Assembly (NCBI GenBank): GCA_030536995.1 | Contig: JAUNOY010000021.1 | Coordinates: 1-50,562, forward strand | Length of the DNA: 50,562 nt | Reading direction: 5' to 3' | Source of the DNA: Eubacteriales bacterium | GTDB taxonomy: Bacteria; Bacillota; Clostridia; Lachnospirales; Lachnospiraceae | Shown: piece by piece, positions 2,105 through 47,417 of the stretch | How the letters are laid out: every line of letters begins with the position of its first letter | How positions within the stretch are numbered: the first letter of the stretch is position 1 | Program-made: the position numbers and the translations under genes | Notes under the pieces: generated by a model | The model's input: only the letters and a program-made list of their open reading frames with translations | What the model was told of the DNA's origin: nothing | The model's database searches: none

Positions 2105-2661
2105 AATGCTGTTACTCCCTTCTGTAAGTCATTAGCATTTGAAAAATCCCCTTTCATATATACAGGAATTCCATATACAACCTCCACTGCTTCGTCCGCA
2201 TCCTGGGCAAGTTTTTGATTAATCCTGCCAAGAGCATCAAGATAAGCTTTCATCTCCCCTTCATAAGAGGCAGAAGCAGAAAAAATTTCGTTTGTTACAA
2301 TAACGAGATGCCTGACTTTTTCCCTGAGATTTTTGACTCCTTCCAGAATTTCCTCCGCAGTATTTTCATGTGCGCCCTCAGGTGCAAACATTTCATTTGC
2401 AGCCAGGTTGGACATACATTCCAAAAGAACCACACTATCTTTTGGAATACTCAGATTCTTTAAATCCGTATACCGTTCTACTGTTTCAAATCCCTTACCG
2501 GCGCGCATTTTACGGTGACGGGCAACTCTTTTTTTTCCCTCTTCATCAAATGGCTGCATTGTGGCTATATATACGCGTTTTGCATCCCCGAAAGAAAGAA
2601 CTCTGTCTTCTGCGAAAGCCGATTTTCCGCTTCCGCTTCCTCCTGTTACCAAAACCATCAT
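2101..2661 (-). CDS. cobU: Bifunctional adenosylcobinamide kinase / adenosylcobinamide-phosphate guanylyltransferase
   Basis: CobU phosphorylates adenosylcobinamide and then transfers GMP to it, making the AdoCbi-GDP used by CobS. The 186 residues begin with VTGGSGSGKSAFAE, a P-loop at the extreme N-terminus as in all CobU proteins. The segments YIATMQPFDEE and RHRKMRAGKGFETVE follow, the latter holding the His guanylylated in the family. The VIVTNEIFS segment (usually VTNEVG) is slightly divergent. The gene sits 15 bases downstream of cobT and overlaps cobS by four bases. Confidence 0.93.
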   Translation of the reverse strand: MMVLVTGGSGSGKSAFAEDRVLSFGDAKRVYIATMQPFDEEGKKRVARHRKMRAGKGFETVERYTDLKNLSIPKDSVVLLECMSNLAANEMFAPEGAHENTAEEILEGVKNLREKVRHLVIVTNEIFSASASYEGEMKAYLDALGRINQKLAQDADEAVEVVYGIPVYMKGDFSNANDLQKGVTAL

Positions 2662-2676
2662 TTCAGGAAATCCCCT

Positions 2677-3729
2677 TTATTTTAATTCTTCATAGCTGTC
2701 AATTTCAATATCGCCAAAAGTGCTCATAGAGGAGTAGACCTCCACAGCCATATCAAGAAGAGGCAAAAGTGCGACTGCACCTGTCCCCTCTCCAAGGCAC
2801 ATGTCTCCGTGTATGATGGCATCTTTTCCCATATGTTTTAATACCAAATGAGCTGCAGGCTCTTTGGATACATGAGATGCCAGAATATAATCGGACACCC
2901 CAGGACAAAGTTTCACCGCAATGATGGCGGCTACACAGGAGATAAAACCGTCCATGAGAACAGGTATCCCCAGAGCTGCTCCACCGAGGAAAAGTCCGGT
3001 CATTCCCGCAATATCCAGTCCTCCGACTTTTGCAAGGACGTCGATAGGATCCTCCGGATTTGGTTTGTTGAGTGAAATTGCTTTTTTTATTGCGTTGATT
3101 TTTCGCTCCAGTCCTTCGCTGGAAAGACCTGCTCCCCGACCGGTCATTTTTTCTACAGGCTGTCCAAGAAGAACAGAGGCAACCGCGCTGCTGGTAGTGG
3201 TGTTTCCGATTCCCATTTCTCCGGTTGCAAAAATGTTATAACCTTTTTCTTTTAATTCACACGCAATCTGGATACCGGCCTCAATTCCGCGAATTGCCTC
3301 TTCACGAGTCATGGCAGGACCTTTTGTCATATTCTTTGTACCGCAGGCAACTTTTAAATCTGTGCGTACCTGTGTGTCCACTGCAATTCCCACATCAACA
3401 GGAATCACATCGACATTGCACTGTCTTGCCATAACACAAGCGGTTGTTATACCTTTGAGAAAGTTATCTGCAACAATCGCTGTAACTTCCTGCCCCGTCT
3501 GGGTTACGCCTTCCTCTACAACACCATTATCTGCGCACATAGGGATCAGCGCTCGTCGGCTGATATCAATCTCTGAGGTTCCGGTCATTCCTGCAATCTG
3601 AATTATCAGAGTTTCCAGCTTACCAAGAGAATGTAACGGTTTCGCAATACTGTCCCAGCGTTTCCGGGCAATCGTCATTGCATGCACATCTAACGGTTTT
3701 ACTCTGGAAATTGCTTCTTCAAATTTCAT
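2677..3729 (-). CDS. cobT: Nicotinate-nucleotide--dimethylbenzimidazole phosphoribosyltransferase
   Basis: CobT moves the phosphoribosyl group of nicotinate mononucleotide onto the lower-ligand base, giving alpha-ribazole phosphate for CobS. The 350-residue length is standard. Family motifs are visible: CADNGVVEEGVTQTG near residues 69-83, ATGEMGIGNTTTSSA near 168-182, GGLDIAGMTG near 237-246, and the acidic DMCLGEGTGAVALLPLLD close to the C-terminus, which holds the catalytic Glu. It is the first cob gene of the group. Only 57 bases separate it from gtrA upstream, with no room for a cobalamin riboswitch. The base it activates in this organism may be something other than dimethylbenzimidazole. 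Confidence 0.94.
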   Translation of the reverse strand: MKFEEAISRVKPLDVHAMTIARKRWDSIAKPLHSLGKLETLIIQIAGMTGTSEIDISRRALIPMCADNGVVEEGVTQTGQEVTAIVADNFLKGITTACVMARQCNVDVIPVDVGIAVDTQVRTDLKVACGTKNMTKGPAMTREEAIRGIEAGIQIACELKEKGYNIFATGEMGIGNTTTSSAVASVLLGQPVEKMTGRGAGLSSEGLERKINAIKKAISLNKPNPEDPIDVLAKVGGLDIAGMTGLFLGGAALGIPVLMDGFISCVAAIIAVKLCPGVSDYILASHVSKEPAAHLVLKHMGKDAIIHGDMCLGEGTGAVALLPLLDMAVEVYSSMSTFGDIEIDSYEELK

Positions 3730-5382: not shown

Positions 5383-8300
5383 TTATTCAGCGCTGTGAAG
5401 AGCGATGAGTTTATTCAGGTATTCGAATCTTGCTTTAGCTTCGGCCTCATTCTTAGCGAAGAGTCTTGCAGCCTTTTCAGGATTCTGACGTTTCAGAGAG
5501 TTGTAACGAACCTCTCCGTCAAGGAATGCCTGGTAATCTTCCATGTTAGGCTCTTTGGAATCAAGAGTGAACTTGTTGCCTTCTGCTGCTGGATTGAATC
5601 TGAAGTTGTGCCAATATCCACACTTAACTGCCAGTTCTTCCTCTGTCTGAGCTTTAGACATACCCTTCTTGATACCATGGTTGATACATGGAGCGTATGC
5701 GATGATCAGAGATGGTCCCGGATATGCCTCAGCCTCTGCAATTGCTTTAACAGTCTGGTTGAAGTCAGCACCCATGGAAATCTGAGCAACATATACATAA
5801 CCATAGCTCATTGCGATGGAAGCCATATCTTTCTTCTTAGTCTCTTTACCGCCGGCAGCGAACTGAGCGATAGCACCTGTTGGTGTAGACTTGGAAGACT
5901 GTCCGCCTGTATTGGAGTAAACCTCTGTATCGAATACCATTACATTGATGTCGCGTCCGCTTGCGAGAACGTGGTCAACACCACCAAATCCGATATCGTA
6001 AGCCCATCCGTCACCACCGAAGATCCACTGGGATTTCTTTCCAAGGAAATCTTTCTGAGCAAGGATTTCTTTTGCTTTATCACAGCCACAAGCTTCAAGA
6101 GCTGCAACTAATTTATCTGTAGCAACACCGTTAGTTGCGCCAACTGCGAATGTGTCTAACCATTCCTGACCTGCTGCTTTAACGTCTTCGTTATCTCCGT
6201 TAGCAACAACATCTTCAACTTTTGCTTTTAAGCCGTCACGGATAGCTTTCTGAGCGAGAAGCATACCATAACCAAACTCAGCGTTATCTTCGAATAAGGA
6301 GTTGCCCCATGCAGGACCCTGTCCCTTAGCGTTTACTGTGTATGGTGTGGACGGTGAGGAGTTACCCCAGATAGAGGAACATCCGGTAGCGTTAGCGATG
6401 TACATTCTGTCACCGAAAAGCTGAGTGATCAGTTTCGCATATGGTGTTTCACCACAACCTGCACAAGCTCCGGAGAACTCAAGGAGAGGCTGTTTGAACT
6501 GGCTGCCTTTAACAGTTGTTTCTTTATATTTAGCAATAACATCTTCTTTAACAGGAAGTTTCACTGCATAATCGAAGTATTTCTGCTCGCCAAGGCTTGC
6601 TTCCAGATTTTCCATAGCAAGGGCTTTCGCACCTTTCTTTCCTGGACATACGTTCGCACAGGAACCGCAGCCTGTACAGTCAAGAGCGGAAACAGCCATT
6701 GTGAATTTGTATTCTTTCATTCCTGTAAGGTCTAATGTCTTCATTCCTTCAGGAGCGTTAGCTACTTCTTCTTCTGTAAGAGCGAATGGACGGATAACAG
6801 CGTGAGGACATACATAAGCACATCTGTTACACTGGATACAGTTTTCCGGATTCCATACAGGAACATTTACTGCAATACCACGTTTCTCGTATGCGGAGGA
6901 ACCGGATGGTGTAGTACCGTCAACATAATCTTTGAATGCAGATACAGGTAAGGAGTTACCTTCCTGAGCATTTACTTTAGACTGGATGTTGTTTACGAAG
7001 TCAACAACTTCCTGACGTCCTTCGGATGCGTGAGACATGAACAGACCTTCGTCTTCTGCGTCTTTCCAGCTTTCCGGAACTTCAATCTCAACTACCTGTT
7101 TTGCACCTGCGTCGATAGCTGCCCAGTTCTTCTGAACAACGTCGTCACCTTTACGTCCGTAAGTAGCTTTTGCAGCAGCTTTCATAAGCTCGATTGCCTG
7201 CTCTTCCGGAATGATGCCTGTCAGTTTGAAGAATGCGGACTGAAGGATTGTGTTGATACGTGTTGGTCCCATGCCAGTTTCAATACCGATCTTAACACCG
7301 TCGATTGTGTAGAATTTGATATTGTGGTTAGCGATGAATGCTTTAACCTGTCCTGGTAAATGTTTCTCAAGACCTTCCATATCCCATGGGCAGTTGAGGA
7401 GGAATGTACCGCCGTCAACAAGCTCCTGAACCATGTTGTACTTGTTTACGTAGGATGGGTTGTGGCATGCTACGAAGTTAGCTGTACGGATCAGGTATGT
7501 GGATTTGATCGGTTTCTTACCGAAACGTAAGTGAGACATTGTAACACCGCCGGACTTCTTGGAGTCATAGTCAAAGTAAGCCTGAGCATACATGTCTGTA
7601 TTGTCACCGATGATCTTGATGGAGTTCTTGTTAGCACCTACTGTACCGTCTGCGCCTAAGCCCCAGAATTTACAGTTAGTTGTTCCTTCTGGTGTTGTAA
7701 CGATCGGAGCACCAACTTCCAGAGAAAGGTTTGTAACGTCATCAACGATACCGAGTGTGAATTTCTGTTTTGTTGTGTTCTCAAATACTGCAGCGATCTG
7801 AGCCGGTGTAGTATCTTTGGAACCTAAGCCGTAACGGCCTGTGAATACTTTAGCGTCAGCAAATTTGCCTTCTTCTTTTAATGCTGCAACAACGTCCAGG
7901 TACAGTGGCTCGCCAAGTGCGCCCGGCTCTTTTGTTCTGTCAAGAACAGTAATCTGTTTAACAGACTCCGGAATAGCTTCAACAAGTGCTTTGGAGCAGA
8001 ATGGTCTGTAAAGACGAACTTTAACAACACCGACTTTTTTGCCTGCTGCCATTAAGTAGTCGATAGTTTCCTCGATTGTATCGTTTACGGAACCCATAGC
8101 TACGATAACGTGTTCAGCATCTTCTGCACCGTAGTAGTTGAATAATTTATAATCTGTGCCGATTTTAGCGTTTACTTTGTCCATGTATTCCTGAACTAAT
8201 GCCGGAAGAGCATCGTAGAACGGGTTACATGCTTCTCTTGCCTGGAAGAAGATATCCGGGTTCTGAGCAGAACCTCTCTGGCATGGATGGTTCGGGTTGA

Positions 8301-9582: not shown

Positions 9583-10104
9583 TTACCGGTTTTTTTCTCT
9601 TTCCTCTATTGTATCCAGAATTTCCCGACATATTTGCTGTGTGCTTTTCCCGTCGGTTATGACTGTAAAATCAGCGGCAGCTTCGTATTTCGGCCTGCGC
9701 TGTTCCATCAGTCGGCATATGTAATCTACATTCATATTGCCTTCCAGAAGAGGACGATTGTGATTATGTTTCACTCTGTTATAAACAGTTTCGGGACATG
9801 CATCCAGAAGAATGACAATTCCGTTTCTTTTCATTTCGGATACATTCTCATCTTTTAGAGCTGTACCCCCGCCACAGGATACTACCAGCCTTTCACTGCT
9901 GCAAAACTTCTTTAACAGACCTGTTTCAACTTCACGGAAATATGATTCGCCGCTGACTGTAAAGATTTCCTTAATACTGCGCCCTTCCTGACGCTCAATC
10001 TCTTCATCCATTTCCAGGCACTTAAATCCGTATTGTTTACAAAGATAGCGGGAAACTGTTGATTTACCGCATCCCATAAAGCCTATTAAATAAATATTCC
10101 CCAT
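9583..10104 (-). CDS. aroK: Shikimate kinase
   Basis: AroK phosphorylates shikimate at the 3-hydroxyl with ATP in aromatic amino acid synthesis. The 173-residue form fits the family. It shows IGFMGCGKSTVSRYL (P-loop, residues about 6-20), the shikimate-binding MDEEIERQEG, the EVETGLL segment, the CGGGTALK loop, and RPLLEG with its lid arginine. The start at 10104 is chosen because AAGGAGAAAG immediately precedes it; the reading frame stays open for 53 more codons upstream, but that stretch has no family resemblance. It lies 64 bases upstream of the Rrf2 gene. Confidence 0.93.
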   Translation of the reverse strand: MGNIYLIGFMGCGKSTVSRYLCKQYGFKCLEMDEEIERQEGRSIKEIFTVSGESYFREVETGLLKKFCSSERLVVSCGGGTALKDENVSEMKRNGIVILLDACPETVYNRVKHNHNRPLLEGNMNVDYICRLMEQRRPKYEAAADFTVITDGKSTQQICREILDTIEEREKNR

Positions 10105-10236
10105 TTCTTTCTCCTTAGACCCTTTTATATACGGATTATACCAGACAGTTTTTTTTTTGTAAAGGAAGCAAGTGTAAGGTTTTGACGAATGTTCGGAGGA
10201 TTTTGGGAATAATCCCGGAAAAATTGAAAATAGGTG

Positions 10237-10264
10237 TTGATTTTTTCTTATTTTACGGTACAAT
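10237..10264 (+). promoter_or_regulatory. Possible sigma-A promoter of the ABC-F gene
   Basis: TTGATT and TACAAT are separated by 16 bases and lie about 60 bases ahead of the ABC-F start codon. The region just downstream is AT-rich. Confidence 0.5.
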
Positions 10265-10323
10265 GATTACGGTTAAACTATTATAATAAGAAATAAAACT
10301 ATATACGAAAAACGAGGTATGAT

Positions 10324-11964
10324 ATGATTTCAGCAAATAACATCACTTTACGTGTAGGAAAAAAAGCCCTCTTCGAAGATGTAAACATCAAATTCACAGA
10401 AGGCAACTGTTACGGTCTGATCGGCGCCAACGGCGCAGGTAAATCTACTTTCCTGAAGATTCTTGACGGCCGCCTTGAGCCAACTAGTGGTGATGTCATT
10501 ATCACACCAGGACAGCGTCTTTCTTTCTTGCAGCAGGACCACTTCAAATATGACGCATATCCTGTACTTGACACTGTCATCATGGGAAATAAAAGACTGT
10601 ATGAAATAATGAAAGAAAAAGAAGCCATCTATGCAAAAGAGGATTTTACAGATGCAGACGGCATCCGTGCAAGTGAACTGGAAGGTGAATTCGCAGAGAT
10701 GAATGGTTGGGAAGCCGAATCAGACGCAGCAACCCTTCTCAACGGTCTTGGCATCGAAACAGAATTTCACTATACACAGATGGCAGATCTTACAGGAAGC
10801 CAGAAAGTGAAGGTTCTTCTGGCACAGGCTCTGTTTGGAAACCCGGACATTCTTCTTCTTGACGAGCCTACCAACCACCTTGACCTTCCTGCTATCGAAT
10901 GGCTTGAGGAATTCCTCATCAACTTCGAAAATACAGTAATCGTGGTATCCCATGACCGTTATTTCTTAAATAAAGTATGTACTCATACTGCGGACATCGA
11001 CTACGGCAAGATTCAGCTTTACGCTGGTAACTACGATTTCTGGTTTGAATCCAGCCAGCTTCTCATCAAGCAGATGAAAGAAGCCAATAAGAAAAAAGAA
11101 GAAAAGATCAAAGAGTTGCAGGAGTTTATTTCCCGATTCAGTGCTAACGCTTCCAAGTCCAAACAGGCCACTTCCCGTAAGCGTGCTTTGGAAAAAATTC
11201 AGCTTGATGACATGCGTCCATCCAGTCGTAAGTATCCATACATCGACTTCCGTCCGAACCGTGAAATCGGAAATGAAGTCCTTATGGTTGAAAATCTCTC
11301 CAAAACAATTGACGGCGTGAAAGTGCTTGATAACATCTCCTTTACTCTGGGACGCGATGACAAAGTTGCTTTTGTCGGCGCAAATGAGCAGGCAATCACA
11401 ACATTTTTCAAGATTCTCATGGGCGAAATGGAACCCGATGAGGGAAATTACAAGTGGGGCGTTACCACTACACAGGCTTATTTCCCGAAAGACAGCACAC
11501 AGGAATTTGATAATGACCTCACCATCACGGACTGGCTGACGCAGTATTCTGAAATCAAGGATGCTACTTATGTGCGCGGTTTCCTTGGACGTATGCTCTT
11601 CCCGGGTGAGGACGGTGTGAAACGTGTTCGCGTTCTTTCAGGTGGTGAGAAGGTACGCTGCCTTCTTTCTAAAATGATGATTTCCGGTGCAAACATTCTG
11701 CTTCTGGATGAGCCTACCAACCATCTGGATATGGAATCTATCACAGCGTTGAACAATGGACTGATCAAGTTCCCGGGAGTTATTCTTTTCACCTCCCATG
11801 ACCACCAGTTCGTACAGACAACTGCCAACCGTATTATGGAAATTCTTCCAAACGGTACTCTCATCGACAAGATCACAACCTACGACGAATATCTGGCAAG
11901 CGATGAAATGGCTAAGAAACGTCACGTATATGAAGTTAATGAAGAGGACGCAGCAGACAACTAA
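10324..11964 (+). CDS. ABC-F family ATPase (YkpA/YbiT type)
   Basis: A 546-residue soluble protein with two ATP-binding cassettes and no membrane part. ABC-F proteins act on the ribosome (translation factors of the EttA type, or antibiotic protection). The first cassette has a normal P-loop, GANGAGKST (about residues 36-44), and the Walker B region LLLDEPTNHLD. The charged interdomain linker (about 250-300) is rich in Lys and Glu. The second cassette has a good signature (LSGGEKVRCLLSKMM) and Walker B (LLLDEPTNHLDM). Its P-loop reads VGANEQAITTF, without the GK[ST] lysine. The order and the KWGVTTTQAYFPKD segment match the YkpA subgroup, as I recall it. It is a monocistronic gene ending at a shared bidirectional terminator. 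A resistance role is not indicated. Confidence 0.92.
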   Translation: MISANNITLRVGKKALFEDVNIKFTEGNCYGLIGANGAGKSTFLKILDGRLEPTSGDVIITPGQRLSFLQQDHFKYDAYPVLDTVIMGNKRLYEIMKEKEAIYAKEDFTDADGIRASELEGEFAEMNGWEAESDAATLLNGLGIETEFHYTQMADLTGSQKVKVLLAQALFGNPDILLLDEPTNHLDLPAIEWLEEFLINFENTVIVVSHDRYFLNKVCTHTADIDYGKIQLYAGNYDFWFESSQLLIKQMKEANKKKEEKIKELQEFISRFSANASKSKQATSRKRALEKIQLDDMRPSSRKYPYIDFRPNREIGNEVLMVENLSKTIDGVKVLDNISFTLGRDDKVAFVGANEQAITTFFKILMGEMEPDEGNYKWGVTTTQAYFPKDSTQEFDNDLTITDWLTQYSEIKDATYVRGFLGRMLFPGEDGVKRVRVLSGGEKVRCLLSKMMISGANILLLDEPTNHLDMESITALNNGLIKFPGVILFTSHDHQFVQTTANRIMEILPNGTLIDKITTYDEYLASDEMAKKRHVYEVNEEDAADN

Positions 11965-40189: not shown

Positions 40190-40217
40190 TGTATTATTTT
40201 TTTTGAGACACATACTA
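40190..40217 (+). promoter_or_regulatory. Sigma-G/sigma-F-like promoter of the SASP gene
   Basis: CATACTA fits the minus-10 consensus CATWMTA of forespore sigma factors. TGTATT lies 15 bases upstream, close to the TGNATA minus-35. The element is 46 bases ahead of the SASP start codon, which has AAGGAGG at the usual distance. Confidence 0.6.
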
Positions 40218-40262: not shown

Positions 40263-40571
40263 ATGACAAACAACAGTTCTTCTAACAAAGCAGTAGTTCC
40301 GGAAGCAAAAGGTGCATTAGACCGTTTCAAATTTGAAGTTGCCAATGAATTAGGTGTTCCGCTCACGGATGGATACAACGGAAACCTTACTTCCAAACAG
40401 AACGGAAGCGTCGGCGGCTATATGGTGAAGAAAATATTCCCCAAACGTCCCACAGACTTTCTTCCTGATCTGGATTCTTCTATAAGTTCGGGTAGAGTAT
40501 CACGTTCATGGGAGCATAAGCAACGCATGGGTGTGGAAATTCATACGCAAATTTCTGTTTTTATAAAGTAG
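40263..40571 (+). pseudogene. Alpha/beta-type small acid-soluble spore protein, 3' end replaced by the integrated element
   Basis: The first 56 or so residues are a textbook alpha/beta SASP, a DNA-coating protein of dormant spores: EAKGALDRFKFEVANELGVP, with the GPR protease site (FE-VANE), and GYNGNLTSKQNGSVGGYMVKK. Normal family members then continue for only about 10-15 more residues. Here the frame runs instead into an unrelated 46-residue tail (IFPKRPTDFLPDLD and beyond) encoded by the element, and the end overlaps the last codons of the recombinase on the other strand. Promoter and ribosome site are intact. Whether the truncated chimera is stable or binds DNA is not known. The missing 3' part should lie at the far junction of the element. 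Confidence 0.8.
40424..40440. other. Left attachment junction (attL) of the element inside the SASP gene
   Basis: Codons for GGYMVKK are conserved up to about 40431 and the sequence then leaves the family. The recombinase gene lies just inside and faces this boundary. The exact crossover dinucleotide cannot be set without the right junction or an empty site. Confidence 0.6.
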
Positions 40572-42247
40572 GTTACACCATTTTTGCCTTCCAGTGTCCG
40601 TTCAGCGTCCGTGGAAGATAAAGTAGTTTCCGAACTGCCGACATAAGCTGTTTTTTTACGGGGGCAACCATTATGAAAAGAAATGACTACCTCCGCTTGT
40701 TTTAAGCTTCTGGGGTGGATTGTTATGGAAGAAATAGTGCTTTCCAATATTTCTGGTGTAAGGTCTTCAGGATTTATTTGGGCGTACTCTCGGATACTTG
40801 CTGTGAGATTTTCGATGTTTTTAAGAATTTCTTCCTTTGACATCGGTATGTTCTTTTCAAGAAGAGAAAGCTCCCGTTTCTTTTCTTCAATTTCAGAAGA
40901 AAAACTTCTATTCCTGGAAAGAAATTCCTTATCGGAAATAAGTCCTGTTAGATTAAAATCCAGAAGTTTATCTCTTCTTGCCTCTAGTATTTCAATATCC
41001 TGCTTGAGACTTTCCGTTTTCTGATCGGTACATGTCAGAGAATAAACTTCTTTTTCATACATAGCTAAGTACTTGTCCAAAAACGTCTGTTTATTCCCGG
41101 ACATTTCGTTGAAAGAATCAGATACTATCTTCAGAAGATCCTCTTCCTTTACCGGAAAAGAGTTACAGGTTCCAGCTCCATTTCTAATTTTGGAACTGCA
41201 GACCCATGTTTTTGATTCTTTTCCATGAATGTTTCGTGCTTTTAGCCAGTATGTGGCTCCATCATTTCCGCATCGGATTAATCCTGTAAAAAGATTATCT
41301 GGCTTACAGGAAGTCTTTTTTTCTTTCACATTATTGCTGCGTTTTGCAAATACTCTGTTCGCTTCTTCCCAAAGTTCTTCAGACACAATTGCAGGTACAC
41401 GACTTCCATCATCCGGATACATTGTCCATTCCTGTTCCGGTAGAAATTTCTGTTTTTTTGAGAAAATATCAATAATCTTGACTTTCCCACCCACATAAAA
41501 CCCCTTATATTTGGGATTACGGATGATGTTTCCAATTACACGACTGCTTATTCTGCCACCTTTGTAATTTCGGTATCCACACTCCCAAAGAAATTTTTCC
41601 AGAGAATGTGTGGACCAGCATCCTGATGCGTATTTTTGATAAATAATCCGAACCATTTCAGCTTCTTTTTCGTTAATATATAAACGTCCGTCTCTTTTAT
41701 CCCATCCATAAATATGAGAATTTCCAAGAACAACGCCATTCTGGATTGAACGGGCATGGCCAAAGCGGACACGGCTAGATAACTTACGACTTTCATCTTG
41801 GGCAATTCCTGACATAATTGTCAGCCGCAATTCAGAATCTTCATCCAAAGTGTTGATATTATCATTCTGAAACCAAACAGCGGTGCCACACTCCAAAAGA
41901 TTACGCGTATAACCAATACTATCTACTACGTTACGCGCAAATCTGGTGATCTCTTTTGTAAGGATCAAATCAAATCGCCCCTGTTTCGCATCAGCAATCA
42001 TTTTTTGAAATGCCTCTCGTTTACTGGTGTTTATACCGGAGAAACCTTCGTCGATATATTTACCGACATAAGTCCACTTTTCCACTCCTGCAATAAATTC
42101 TTCAAAATAATCCTGCTGATGGTCAATAGAAGTTTTCTGTTCTTCTTTTTCTGTACTGACACGCGCATAATATACCACGCGTAACTGCAGATCAAAAATG
42201 GTGCATTGATTTAGTTTCATTTGTTTTCTTGTATTATAAATATCCAT
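40541..42247 (-). CDS. Large serine recombinase (site-specific integrase)
   Basis: A 568-residue resolvase/invertase-superfamily integrase. The catalytic domain holds the nucleophile Ser in VVYYARVSTEKEEQ, the segment DEGFSGINTSKREAFQKM and KEITRFARNVVDS. The recombinase domain follows (GNIIRNPKYKGFYVGG), then a zinc-ribbon (LIRCGNDGATYWLKAR and later CSSK, GAGTC) and a coiled-coil region (about residues 400-490). The start at 42247 is chosen because AAAGGA lies 9 bases ahead. The gene ends about 110 bases from the SASP junction and runs toward it, the normal place for the integrase of such elements. It should recombine attP with a short site in the SASP gene. Confidence 0.93.
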   Translation of the reverse strand: MDIYNTRKQMKLNQCTIFDLQLRVVYYARVSTEKEEQKTSIDHQQDYFEEFIAGVEKWTYVGKYIDEGFSGINTSKREAFQKMIADAKQGRFDLILTKEITRFARNVVDSIGYTRNLLECGTAVWFQNDNINTLDEDSELRLTIMSGIAQDESRKLSSRVRFGHARSIQNGVVLGNSHIYGWDKRDGRLYINEKEAEMVRIIYQKYASGCWSTHSLEKFLWECGYRNYKGGRISSRVIGNIIRNPKYKGFYVGGKVKIIDIFSKKQKFLPEQEWTMYPDDGSRVPAIVSEELWEEANRVFAKRSNNVKEKKTSCKPDNLFTGLIRCGNDGATYWLKARNIHGKESKTWVCSSKIRNGAGTCNSFPVKEEDLLKIVSDSFNEMSGNKQTFLDKYLAMYEKEVYSLTCTDQKTESLKQDIEILEARRDKLLDFNLTGLISDKEFLSRNRSFSSEIEEKKRELSLLEKNIPMSKEEILKNIENLTASIREYAQINPEDLTPEILESTISSITIHPRSLKQAEVVISFHNGCPRKKTAYVGSSETTLSSTDAERTLEGKNGVTYFIKTEICV

Positions 42248-42276
42248 AATGAATAAACGTCCTTTCCATTTGGATA

Positions 42277-42456
42277 TCACACCATTTTTTTATTATAATT
42301 GTTATAATCAAAAGAATCAACATCTGTTTGTTTTCCAGCTTCTGGACGCATTACAATAATATCTTTTTGCAATGCATTGTAAAGTTCCTGTGAAATTTTA
42401 CTGTGTTTCAACATTTTGTCATTAATCATCGTTAATATTGTTTGTTCAAAGGTCAT
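42277..42456 (-). CDS. Small protein upstream of the recombinase
   Basis: A 59-residue reading frame with AAAGGAG 12 bases ahead of its ATG. It begins MTFEQTILTMINDKML and ends with an Asp/Asn/Tyr-rich tail. It lies 29 bases before the recombinase start and is surely co-transcribed. I do not recognise its family. A small partner ORF beside a large serine recombinase could be a directionality or regulatory factor, but this is speculation. Confidence 0.6.
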   Translation of the reverse strand: MTFEQTILTMINDKMLKHSKISQELYNALQKDIIVMRPEAGKQTDVDSFDYNNYNKKMV

Positions 42457-45910: not shown

Positions 45911-47417
45911 TTATGCGAAAGAAAATTGTCCATTCTCCTGTTGTCCGAGCTGTACAAAAGGAACTCTTTCCTTTTCATAGAGATATGGGCAGTTTGCAGA
46001 CACAATTGCTTCTGCCATGACTGGTACAACAGCATTTCCTATTTTAGCAACCTGTTCATGGATAGGAAGCTTATGCCAGAACGTGTCGTGTGATATATCA
46101 TAATCGTCCGGGAAACCATTACCTCTTTTCAACTCATCTGGATCTAACATACGGAGATGTATATCCATAAGGACACGGTTATCATGTAGTACGGTTACCA
46201 AAGCAAACCGATCTTTTGTAGTGATTGTCCGCAATGGCTGGTTGATTGTCTGACCAATATCTGAGCCATAATAAGCCAATAAGAACTGACTTACCTGATG
46301 TGCCCGTTCCAGCTCTTTTTTGCTTGTTTTGGACAAGTCTGATATCGAGGAAATATTGACGCTTACAAGCCCAAAATGACCAGGGCTGGTCGTGATGGTA
46401 TGTAAAGGTTCATCTATAGACTGACCAATACCGGTTTTGTAATATTTCGTCATAAATTGTTTTGTTTCGCAAATCGTTCCCTGAACGATTCCCATCCCAA
46501 GTTTACATGTAAAAGTGGGCAATGGTTCATCCACGGATTGTCCACGGAAACTGTCTCCAGAATGATTGATATGAACAAGAAATGGTTTATCGCCGTCCAG
46601 AACATATTTCTTAATTCCCTGAGCGATACGCCGCATGGTATTGGGAGCCAGAGGTTTTTTCCGTTCAAAGATAGAGTCTCCGTAATCATCCAGTTTCAGA
46701 ATCTTTGAGGCTGGGATCCATTTTTTCATACCATTGCTTCCATCTTTATTAAAGCGGGGTTCTGGCCACTTGATAGAACGCCCATCCTTTCGGATGACAG
46801 CATACCAGCGCTTACGTGTGGTTGGTGCTCCATAATCTGCAGCACATAATTCGCGTGCTTCAAAGTGCTACCTGACAATTATCACAAAAATGCCGGCAGC
46901 TTTCCGGAACATCCAGAGGACGTCCATCGTAACGCAATCTTCCAGTTGTCATATGTTCAACAAAACAGCGATAACAAACACCTTCCAGTTCCTTTACGGG
47001 GCGTCCATATCCGGGGAAATTCTCCCTGTCTTCAATTGGTGCCCAGTTCTGTATTTCTGTGACGTTTTCCATACAGATGACTTCCGGACTGATCTTTGCG
47101 GCATGATAATACACCGCAAATGGAAGCATACGGACTCCCGCACACCGGGGAGTATTTCCCTTTGCTTTTGAAAAGTGTGTACAGTCCGGAGAAGCCCACA
47201 CCAGAGATACTTTTCTGCCCGAAACAAACTTCTCTACATCGGCACTGAAGATATCTTCCGTCATATGGTAGGTTGACGGGTGGTTTCTGGAATGCAGCAT
47301 GATAGCTGTCTGGTCATGATTTACTGCAAAATCAACACTTCGTCCAAATGCTTTTTCGATACCGACACTTGCTCCTCCTGCTCCACAAAAAAAATCTCCA
47401 ATTAATCCTCTTTCCAT
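45911..47417 (-). pseudogene. DNA (cytosine-5) methyltransferase, split by a one-base frameshift
   Basis: The first open part (47417-46860) has cytosine-5 methyltransferase motifs I (DFFCGAGGAS, residues 8-17), IV (SPDCTHFSKAKG, catalytic Cys79) and VI (MENVTEI). A cysteine set (C148, C151, C174, C178, C181) follows and may bind zinc. The frame then ends in TGA at 46860. Removing one T from the CTTTGAA at 46859-46865 joins it to ARELCAADYGAPTTRKRWYA (motif VIII region), which runs on through the target-recognition part to motif X (GNAVVPVMAEAI). In the C-terminal half three copies of a Q-S/T-x-x-E/Q-P-L-x-T-x-T motif occur. Restored length is about 500 residues. As read, no active enzyme is made unless the halves associate. 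The start is probably coupled to the small upstream ORF. Confidence 0.8.

Follow-up and report, generated by a model that had tools for sequence, protein, structure and literature searches.

The interrupted SASP gene and the recombinase gene

The window (the whole stretch of DNA that was analysed, 50,562 nucleotides) is the entire contig C10 of its genome and ends inside an integrated element. The ORF at 40263-40571 was matched to the Pfam SASP family (PF00269, 2.2e-25) at profile positions 1-51 of 59, after which the family likeness ends, and the first base diverging from intact SASP genes is 40436 (Table 1). The promoter block of this gene was read by eye and named by what we take to be the sigmaG consensus. 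It was also visible by eye upstream in the captured SASP regions of six relatives, and an automated pattern for a sigmaG-type block gave 0 matches among the captured upstream regions of the relatives. The promoter block and the ribosome site are common to relatives.

For the comparison within the genus, 24 relatives were searched and a SASP match was obtained in 18. At the point where the window diverges, VKKMIEAQE[RK]QM was present in all 18 intact loci, and an intact gene with the odd C-terminus of the window was found in none of them. The 1.6 kb upstream of the junction was matched by blastn in 18/18 loci, in several of them in pieces or near the SASP gene only. In the family sample, SASP was matched in 265 of 396 genomes, and among the matches listed only that of the present genome stops short, at residue 60 of 69. 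A structural relative of the protein was SspC (PDB 2z3x, 1.1e-7), presumably in its complex with DNA; because the truncation falls inside the last part aligned to 2z3x, part of the DNA-binding protein is likely lost.

A second, divergent SASP-type gene lies elsewhere in the present genome (L002, contig C31, 24063-24182, minus strand; Pfam positions 13-50), similar divergent genes occur in G479, G480 and G481, and the SASP search of the present genome found no third SASP gene. Among five genomes tested, a divergent gene is the sole other SASP-type match in four (the present genome, G479, G480 and G481), and G478 has a second full-length SASP gene.

The large serine recombinase (LSR) gene converges on the SASP junction, with its stop about 105 bp from the core, and encodes a single protein with a resolvase, a recombinase and a zinc-ribbon domain (PF00239, PF07508 and PF13408, respectively, all above the cut-offs). 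Its product was matched to a PHROG integrase (3.7e-112) and its catalytic domain to PDB 3g13 (1.1e-32). A sigmaA-type site precedes the LSR in 25 of 32 clade members (shuffles: mean 1.1, maximum 5 of 300). The 59-aa ORF directly upstream, a candidate directionality factor or partner, gave nothing above the cut-off against Pfam. Similar short ORFs precede the LSR in L037, L038, L039, L040, L042, L063, L057 and L058, and a strict pattern for them was found in 6 of 32 clade members.

These features agree with the original prediction, in which the SASP gene keeps its promoter, its ribosome site and about 56 codons (57 are shared) and leaves its family at about 40431, with a large serine recombinase facing the junction.

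Table 1. Features at the SASP junction in the window
Feature	Position	Strand	Basis or remark
Putative sigmaG-type promoter of the SASP gene (TGTATT ... CATACTA)	40190..40217	+	read by eye
5' part of alpha/beta SASP gene, 57 shared codons and 2 bases of the next	40263..40435	+	PF00269 positions 1-51; 18 intact same-genus loci
Shared core TGAAGAAAAT of attL; probable crossover dinucleotide AA at 40428-40429	40426..40435	+	same core on C6
Right arm (P') of the element's attachment site	40430..40455	+	reverse complement matches C6 arm, 18/26
Left 10.1 kb of the element, cut by contig end	40430..50562	.	at least 9.8 kb more on C6
Element-encoded tail of the fused SASP ORF, non-SASP, different in other cases	40436..40571	+	
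Large serine recombinase gene; start in relatives is the codon at 42247	40541..42280	-	Pfam, PHROG, alignment
59-aa ORF directly upstream of the LSR	42277..42456	-	candidate directionality factor or partner
Putative sigmaA-type LSR promoter, TTGATT-17-TATAAT	42292..42320	-	sequence pattern

The other end of the element and the gene restored in silico

The assembly of the present genome (2.83 Mb) comprises 40 contigs, two of which, C10 and C6, each hold part of the element. The missing 3' end of the SASP gene, which the original prediction expected beyond the window together with a matching core, was found by a degenerate pattern for IEAQERQM once in the whole genome, at C6:1954-1977 on the minus strand, and the reversed control pattern gave 0 matches. 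On C6 (11,809 bp), the core TGAAGAAAAT lies at 1988-1979 on the minus strand and is followed by MIEAQERQMSSGSSASMGGQTGM and a stop; the attR as a whole reads GAGAACATTTTGAAGAAAATGATCGAAGC, then MIEAQERQMSSGSSASMGGQTGM and the stop. When the window and C6 were joined in silico at TGAAGAAAAT, an in-frame alpha/beta SASP like that of the 18/18 same-genus loci was obtained. Chance similarity was considered for the C6 3' end and ruled out by the single genome-wide match and the in-frame join at the shared core. Together with the Pfam domains, the two halves and their shared core bear out the predicted interruption of an alpha/beta SASP gene at a precise site by an LSR-bearing element.

Beyond the SASP stop, the C6 flank is not syntenic with that of the relatives: no more than its first 35-45 bases are matched, and these in 14/18 loci. 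C10 and C6 were therefore paired by core, frame and uniqueness and not by synteny. The C10 and C6 ends of the element do not overlap, the middle of the element was not found, and seven small contigs of the genome look chromosomal by eye. Searching for close relatives of the body of the window element gave nothing useful.

Recurrence and the recombinase clade

Nine LSR relatives were obtained from a scan of named genomes. In L037 and L042 the LSR faces a SASP gene whose break falls at the same codon as in the window, and the LSR frame of L038, L039, L040 (from the culturable strain Anaerotignum lactatifermentans DSM 14214) and L041 continues into a 3' end of the SASP type. Among the 39 contigs obtained in a viral scan, SASP junctions were present in L057, L058, L059 and L060; two further viral scans with other LSRs added no contigs. 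For the window, G476, G479, G480 and G481, five genomes or records in all, the two SASP halves could be paired, and all five joins made in silico were in frame, at the same codon, and gave a canonical SASP, in line with the predicted restoration of the gene by precise excision. In the virus record G476 the whole insertion lies on one contig, with the halves 26.5 kb apart. Many of the 3'-half junctions were called by eye from a short tail motif, the 5' partner being sought in few of them. G483 (L038) has two full-length SASP genes next to the junction, and a cut 5' partner was not recognised there.

A first tree placed the LSRs at SASP junctions in one clade of 33 rows. The enlarged clade has 58 rows (SH-aLRT 99, quick search) and includes the window LSR; 30 rows abut the SASP 3' half, 9 face the 5' half, 9 have a free attP, 8 were unread and 2 are other cases. 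The LSR thus abuts SASP, in either orientation, in 39/58 rows, which are not 39 independent insertions because they include near-copies. From the 8 unread rows, L208 was the 40th to abut SASP, its LSR being frameshifted. The LSR frame of L225 (contig C41 of G1141), also from these 8, reads into a tyrosine-recombinase gene and not into SASP; this LSR seems to sit elsewhere than SASP, and a target switch is possible.

A clade member was found in 15 of 391 genomes of the class sample (14 at SASP, and one on a contig that ends too soon) and in at least 22 of 392 genomes of the order sample (17 at SASP, 4 unread and 1 elsewhere), the latter number being a lower bound because six matches had no locus and were left unread. 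In the family sample, an LSR at E up to 1e-95 was found in 2 of 397 genomes, both at SASP. The three samples overlap (the present genome, G034, G040 and G185), and limits and query proteins differed between them. The LSR clade is best read as specialised on the Lys-Lys-Met codons of SASP in Clostridia.

Attachment sites and orientation

In all five paired cases the predicted attP arms are palindromic around AA, with 14 (the window), 16, 17, 16 and 17 of 20 bases, scores that were reached by 4, 0, 0, 0 and 0 of 5000 shuffles, respectively. The palindrome centre falls at the same codon in each case and was the best of the 13 centres tried.

Where the LSR strand reads TT at the centre, the LSR faces the 5' half of SASP, and where that strand reads AA, the LSR abuts the 3' half; the two orientation types are interspersed on the LSR trees. 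This pattern agrees with the rule that the central dinucleotide sets the orientation of integration (Ghosh 2003, as cited in PMC3783163). Of the 48 clade rows that have a free attP or a junction that was read, 47 have an LSR frame passing through the attP centre, a count that leans to in-frame cases because the 3'-half junctions were recognised via the LSR frame. The one exception is the window LSR, which stops before the site. An out-of-frame junction was found in none of the ten leftover clade rows checked in all frames. On our reading, a frame that crosses the attP centre would mean that the recombinase has its last codons exchanged on integration, the new end being supplied by the host SASP or by its antisense strand.

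Uninserted attP forms were found inside the viral contigs L061, L063, L071 and L079; virus contigs with a free attP, such as L061 and L063, reach lengths of up to 137 kb. At the free attP of L069, L070, L072, L074 and L077 the centre is TG or CA and not AA or TT, and the target is perhaps a shifted site or another gene.

Gene content of the element and its carriers

The genes of the window element are of the accessory kind (DUF3846, HD domain, methylases, HNH-type, Myb repeats and macro domain), and no virion or lysis genes were seen among the proteins scanned from its 20 kb, from which the middle is missing. The relative G474 encodes a tail protein (1.4e-187), an endolysin (6.6e-46) and an antirepressor (5.4e-68). 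A cytosine-5 methylase lies on the minus strand of the window at 45911-47417 in two pieces in different frames (N-terminal 46860-47417 and C-terminal 45911-46729), which is either a broken gene or a sequencing error. On C6 (L036), several Myb-like DNA-binding repeats (2202-3653), a macro-domain protein (7313-8224) and, by eye, a TnpB-like zinc-finger fragment (9779-10549) were observed.

In the virus record G476, an ORF that looks Cas5-type-like by eye (L118, 5672-6382) lies inside the SASP-integrated prophage. On contig C1 of G478 (L042 and L163-L179), 167 kb lie beside the SASP-integrated LSR, from 143 kb to the contig end at 310 kb, and neither the right end of the element of L042 nor the SASP 3' half was found in them. 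This stretch codes for a tubulin of the PhuZ/TubZ type, a phage-type DNA polymerase and an HSP70. One of its proteins weakly matches RNA polymerase Rpb1, several are TasA-like or signal-peptidase-like by eye, and the whole is perhaps a very large integrated phage.

Interpretation of the insertion

The element is very probably of the temperate phage type, carries an LSR of a SASP-specialised clade and is integrated inside the alpha/beta SASP gene of its host. The two gene halves, the core, the in-frame restoration, the recurrence and the two orientations can all be read in the sequences; the enzyme is presumably active, and AA presumably the crossover point. The LSR would have recombined attP, a palindrome around AA, with attB at the conserved Val-Lys-Lys-Met codons of SASP, the strand bearing AA setting the direction in which the element enters. 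The insertion would leave the promoter with a 5' part of 57 codons and place a 3' end of 23 codons beyond the element. In the integrated state the main SASP of the host would be truncated, to be regained once the element leaves, and since serine recombination is conservative, recombination of attL with attR would give back the exact gene. Excision would probably be brought about by a directionality factor, ordinarily after phage induction and not by the spore programme. That the conserved SASP site serves as a mere target, one of the two readings originally offered, is strongly supported, because related LSRs strike the same SASP codons again and again.

In the ordinary form of this explanation, to which about an even chance is given, the loss is tolerated: lysogens would carry a truncated SASP and form less resistant or few spores, and the element would be excised only on phage induction. 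The sigmaA-like promoter of the LSR, the rarity of the insertion in the family (2/397 genomes at the limit used) and the second full-length SASP gene retained by G478 are consistent with it. A cost is expected, however, because 4/5 genomes tested are without a second full-length SASP match, and the whole clade keeps the SASP target all the same.

It is conceivable, though rather unlikely, that a sporulation-controlled directionality factor excises the element in the forespore around the onset of SASP synthesis and restores the protein, after which the spore chromosome would be cured, or the element would ride as a circle and re-integrate at outgrowth. In each of the five paired cases the two halves of the gene are intact and open, as such a switch would have it, but the intact halves fit a recent insertion too. 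Further points in its favour are that the only other SASP-type match is divergent in 4/5 genomes tested, the present one included, that the hosts keep SpoIVA (5/5) and Gpr (4/5; the Gpr match of the present genome lies in two stretches, the second with an internal TGA), and that excision in the related SPbeta and C. difficile skin systems is timed by a small directionality factor, as described in PMC4191935 and PMC5025042. On the other side, a sporulation promoter was looked for before the window LSR and none was found, the SASP promoter of the window would, by its geometry, read against the LSR gene, and no directionality factor was recognised. The sigmaA-type LSR promoter neither proves nor excludes developmental timing, because the skin element of C. 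difficile also has a sigmaA-driven LSR. According to the account of sspC in PMC8270828, SASP proteins are made in the forespore under sigmaG. Because SASP acts there, excision in the forespore would remove the element from the inherited chromosome; the caution originally expressed on this point stands, SPbeta excision being confined to the mother cell in PMC4191935. That the SASP landing site ties the element to spore biology, with exit in the forespore, dormancy as a free circle or loss, and re-integration at outgrowth, is likewise doubtful.

A defunct recombinase or element, with the SASP gene permanently broken in this strain, is improbable: the cytosine methylase is in two separated pieces and the part of the element seen has no virion genes, but the LSR ORF is intact with all three domains and both SASP pieces are undamaged. 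An assembly artefact or chimeric contig is scarcely credible, for although the genome is in 40 contigs, with the element split over two and the far flank of C6 non-syntenic with the relatives, the architecture recurs in four more genomes or records, and in one of these a single contig holds both halves.

Integration at SASP raises the question of how a lysogen of this clade protects its spore DNA, and whether the phage leaves the inherited chromosome. If true, forespore excision would be the forespore counterpart of skin, in a phage life cycle built on spores. The clade offers LSRs for which attB is defined, attP is predicted and orientation variants occur naturally, as well as a marker for phages of spore formers that are hard to culture.

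Comparison with known systems

The anatomy of the locus fits that of sporulation gene-intervening (skin-like) elements: an LSR element lies in a sporulation gene whose frame can be restored. The target is an alpha/beta SASP and not a gene acting in the mother cell; the element may work like the skin-type elements, yet it is not classed as one. In the accounts available to us, the sporulation-gene rearrangements with a stated compartment act in the mother cell, the genome of which is discarded.

In B. subtilis, SPbeta in spsM is described as having the SprA recombinase, the SprB factor, a core of about 16 bp and inverted repeats, its excision being confined to the mother cell under a mother-cell-controlled factor, and the spore keeping the phage (PMC4191935). 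The SASP element is likewise an LSR prophage in a sporulation gene with precise restoration, here predicted by the in silico join. Unlike spsM, which is restored in the mother cell, its target is, by its sequence, a forespore protein, and a mother-cell route of the SPbeta type could not repair SASP because SASP is needed in the forespore. SPbeta itself carries the SASP gene sspC (PMC8270828), in contrast to the present case, in which the genome gave no further SASP gene beyond the interrupted and the divergent one.

In skin in sigK (B. subtilis SpoIVCA, C. difficile CD1231), an LSR element also splits a sporulation gene, a likeness of architecture. For C. difficile skin, a sigmaA-dependent promoter of the LSR (CD1231), a regulated directionality factor (CD1234) and mother-cell-specific excision are described in PMC5025042. 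The LSR promoter of the SASP element is likewise of sigmaA type, as its pattern suggests, whereas no counterpart of CD1234 was recognised in the element.

The gin element in gerE (B. cereus) and yin in yabG (C. botulinum) are LSR elements whose measured excision restores the genes, as reported in PMC5595907 and PMC10747680. They resemble the SASP element in lying in a short or conserved sporulation gene, and the targets differ; yin is described there as unique to one strain, whereas the SASP-targeting family recurs in many genomes. Distantly related LSRs have been reported to share a single target in a coding sequence, for example the genes for magnesium chelatase and prolyl isomerase (Durrant et al. 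2022, PMC10083194), and the SASP clade is like the site-specific LSR clusters of that study in that one conserved target gene is used by related LSRs. The terms SASP, acid-soluble and PF00269 are absent from the main text of that paper, and no report of SASP as an LSR target was found in the main texts of open papers. The SASP insertion is of a known kind, an LSR element in a sporulation gene, and what is new is the SASP target and the clade-wide scale.
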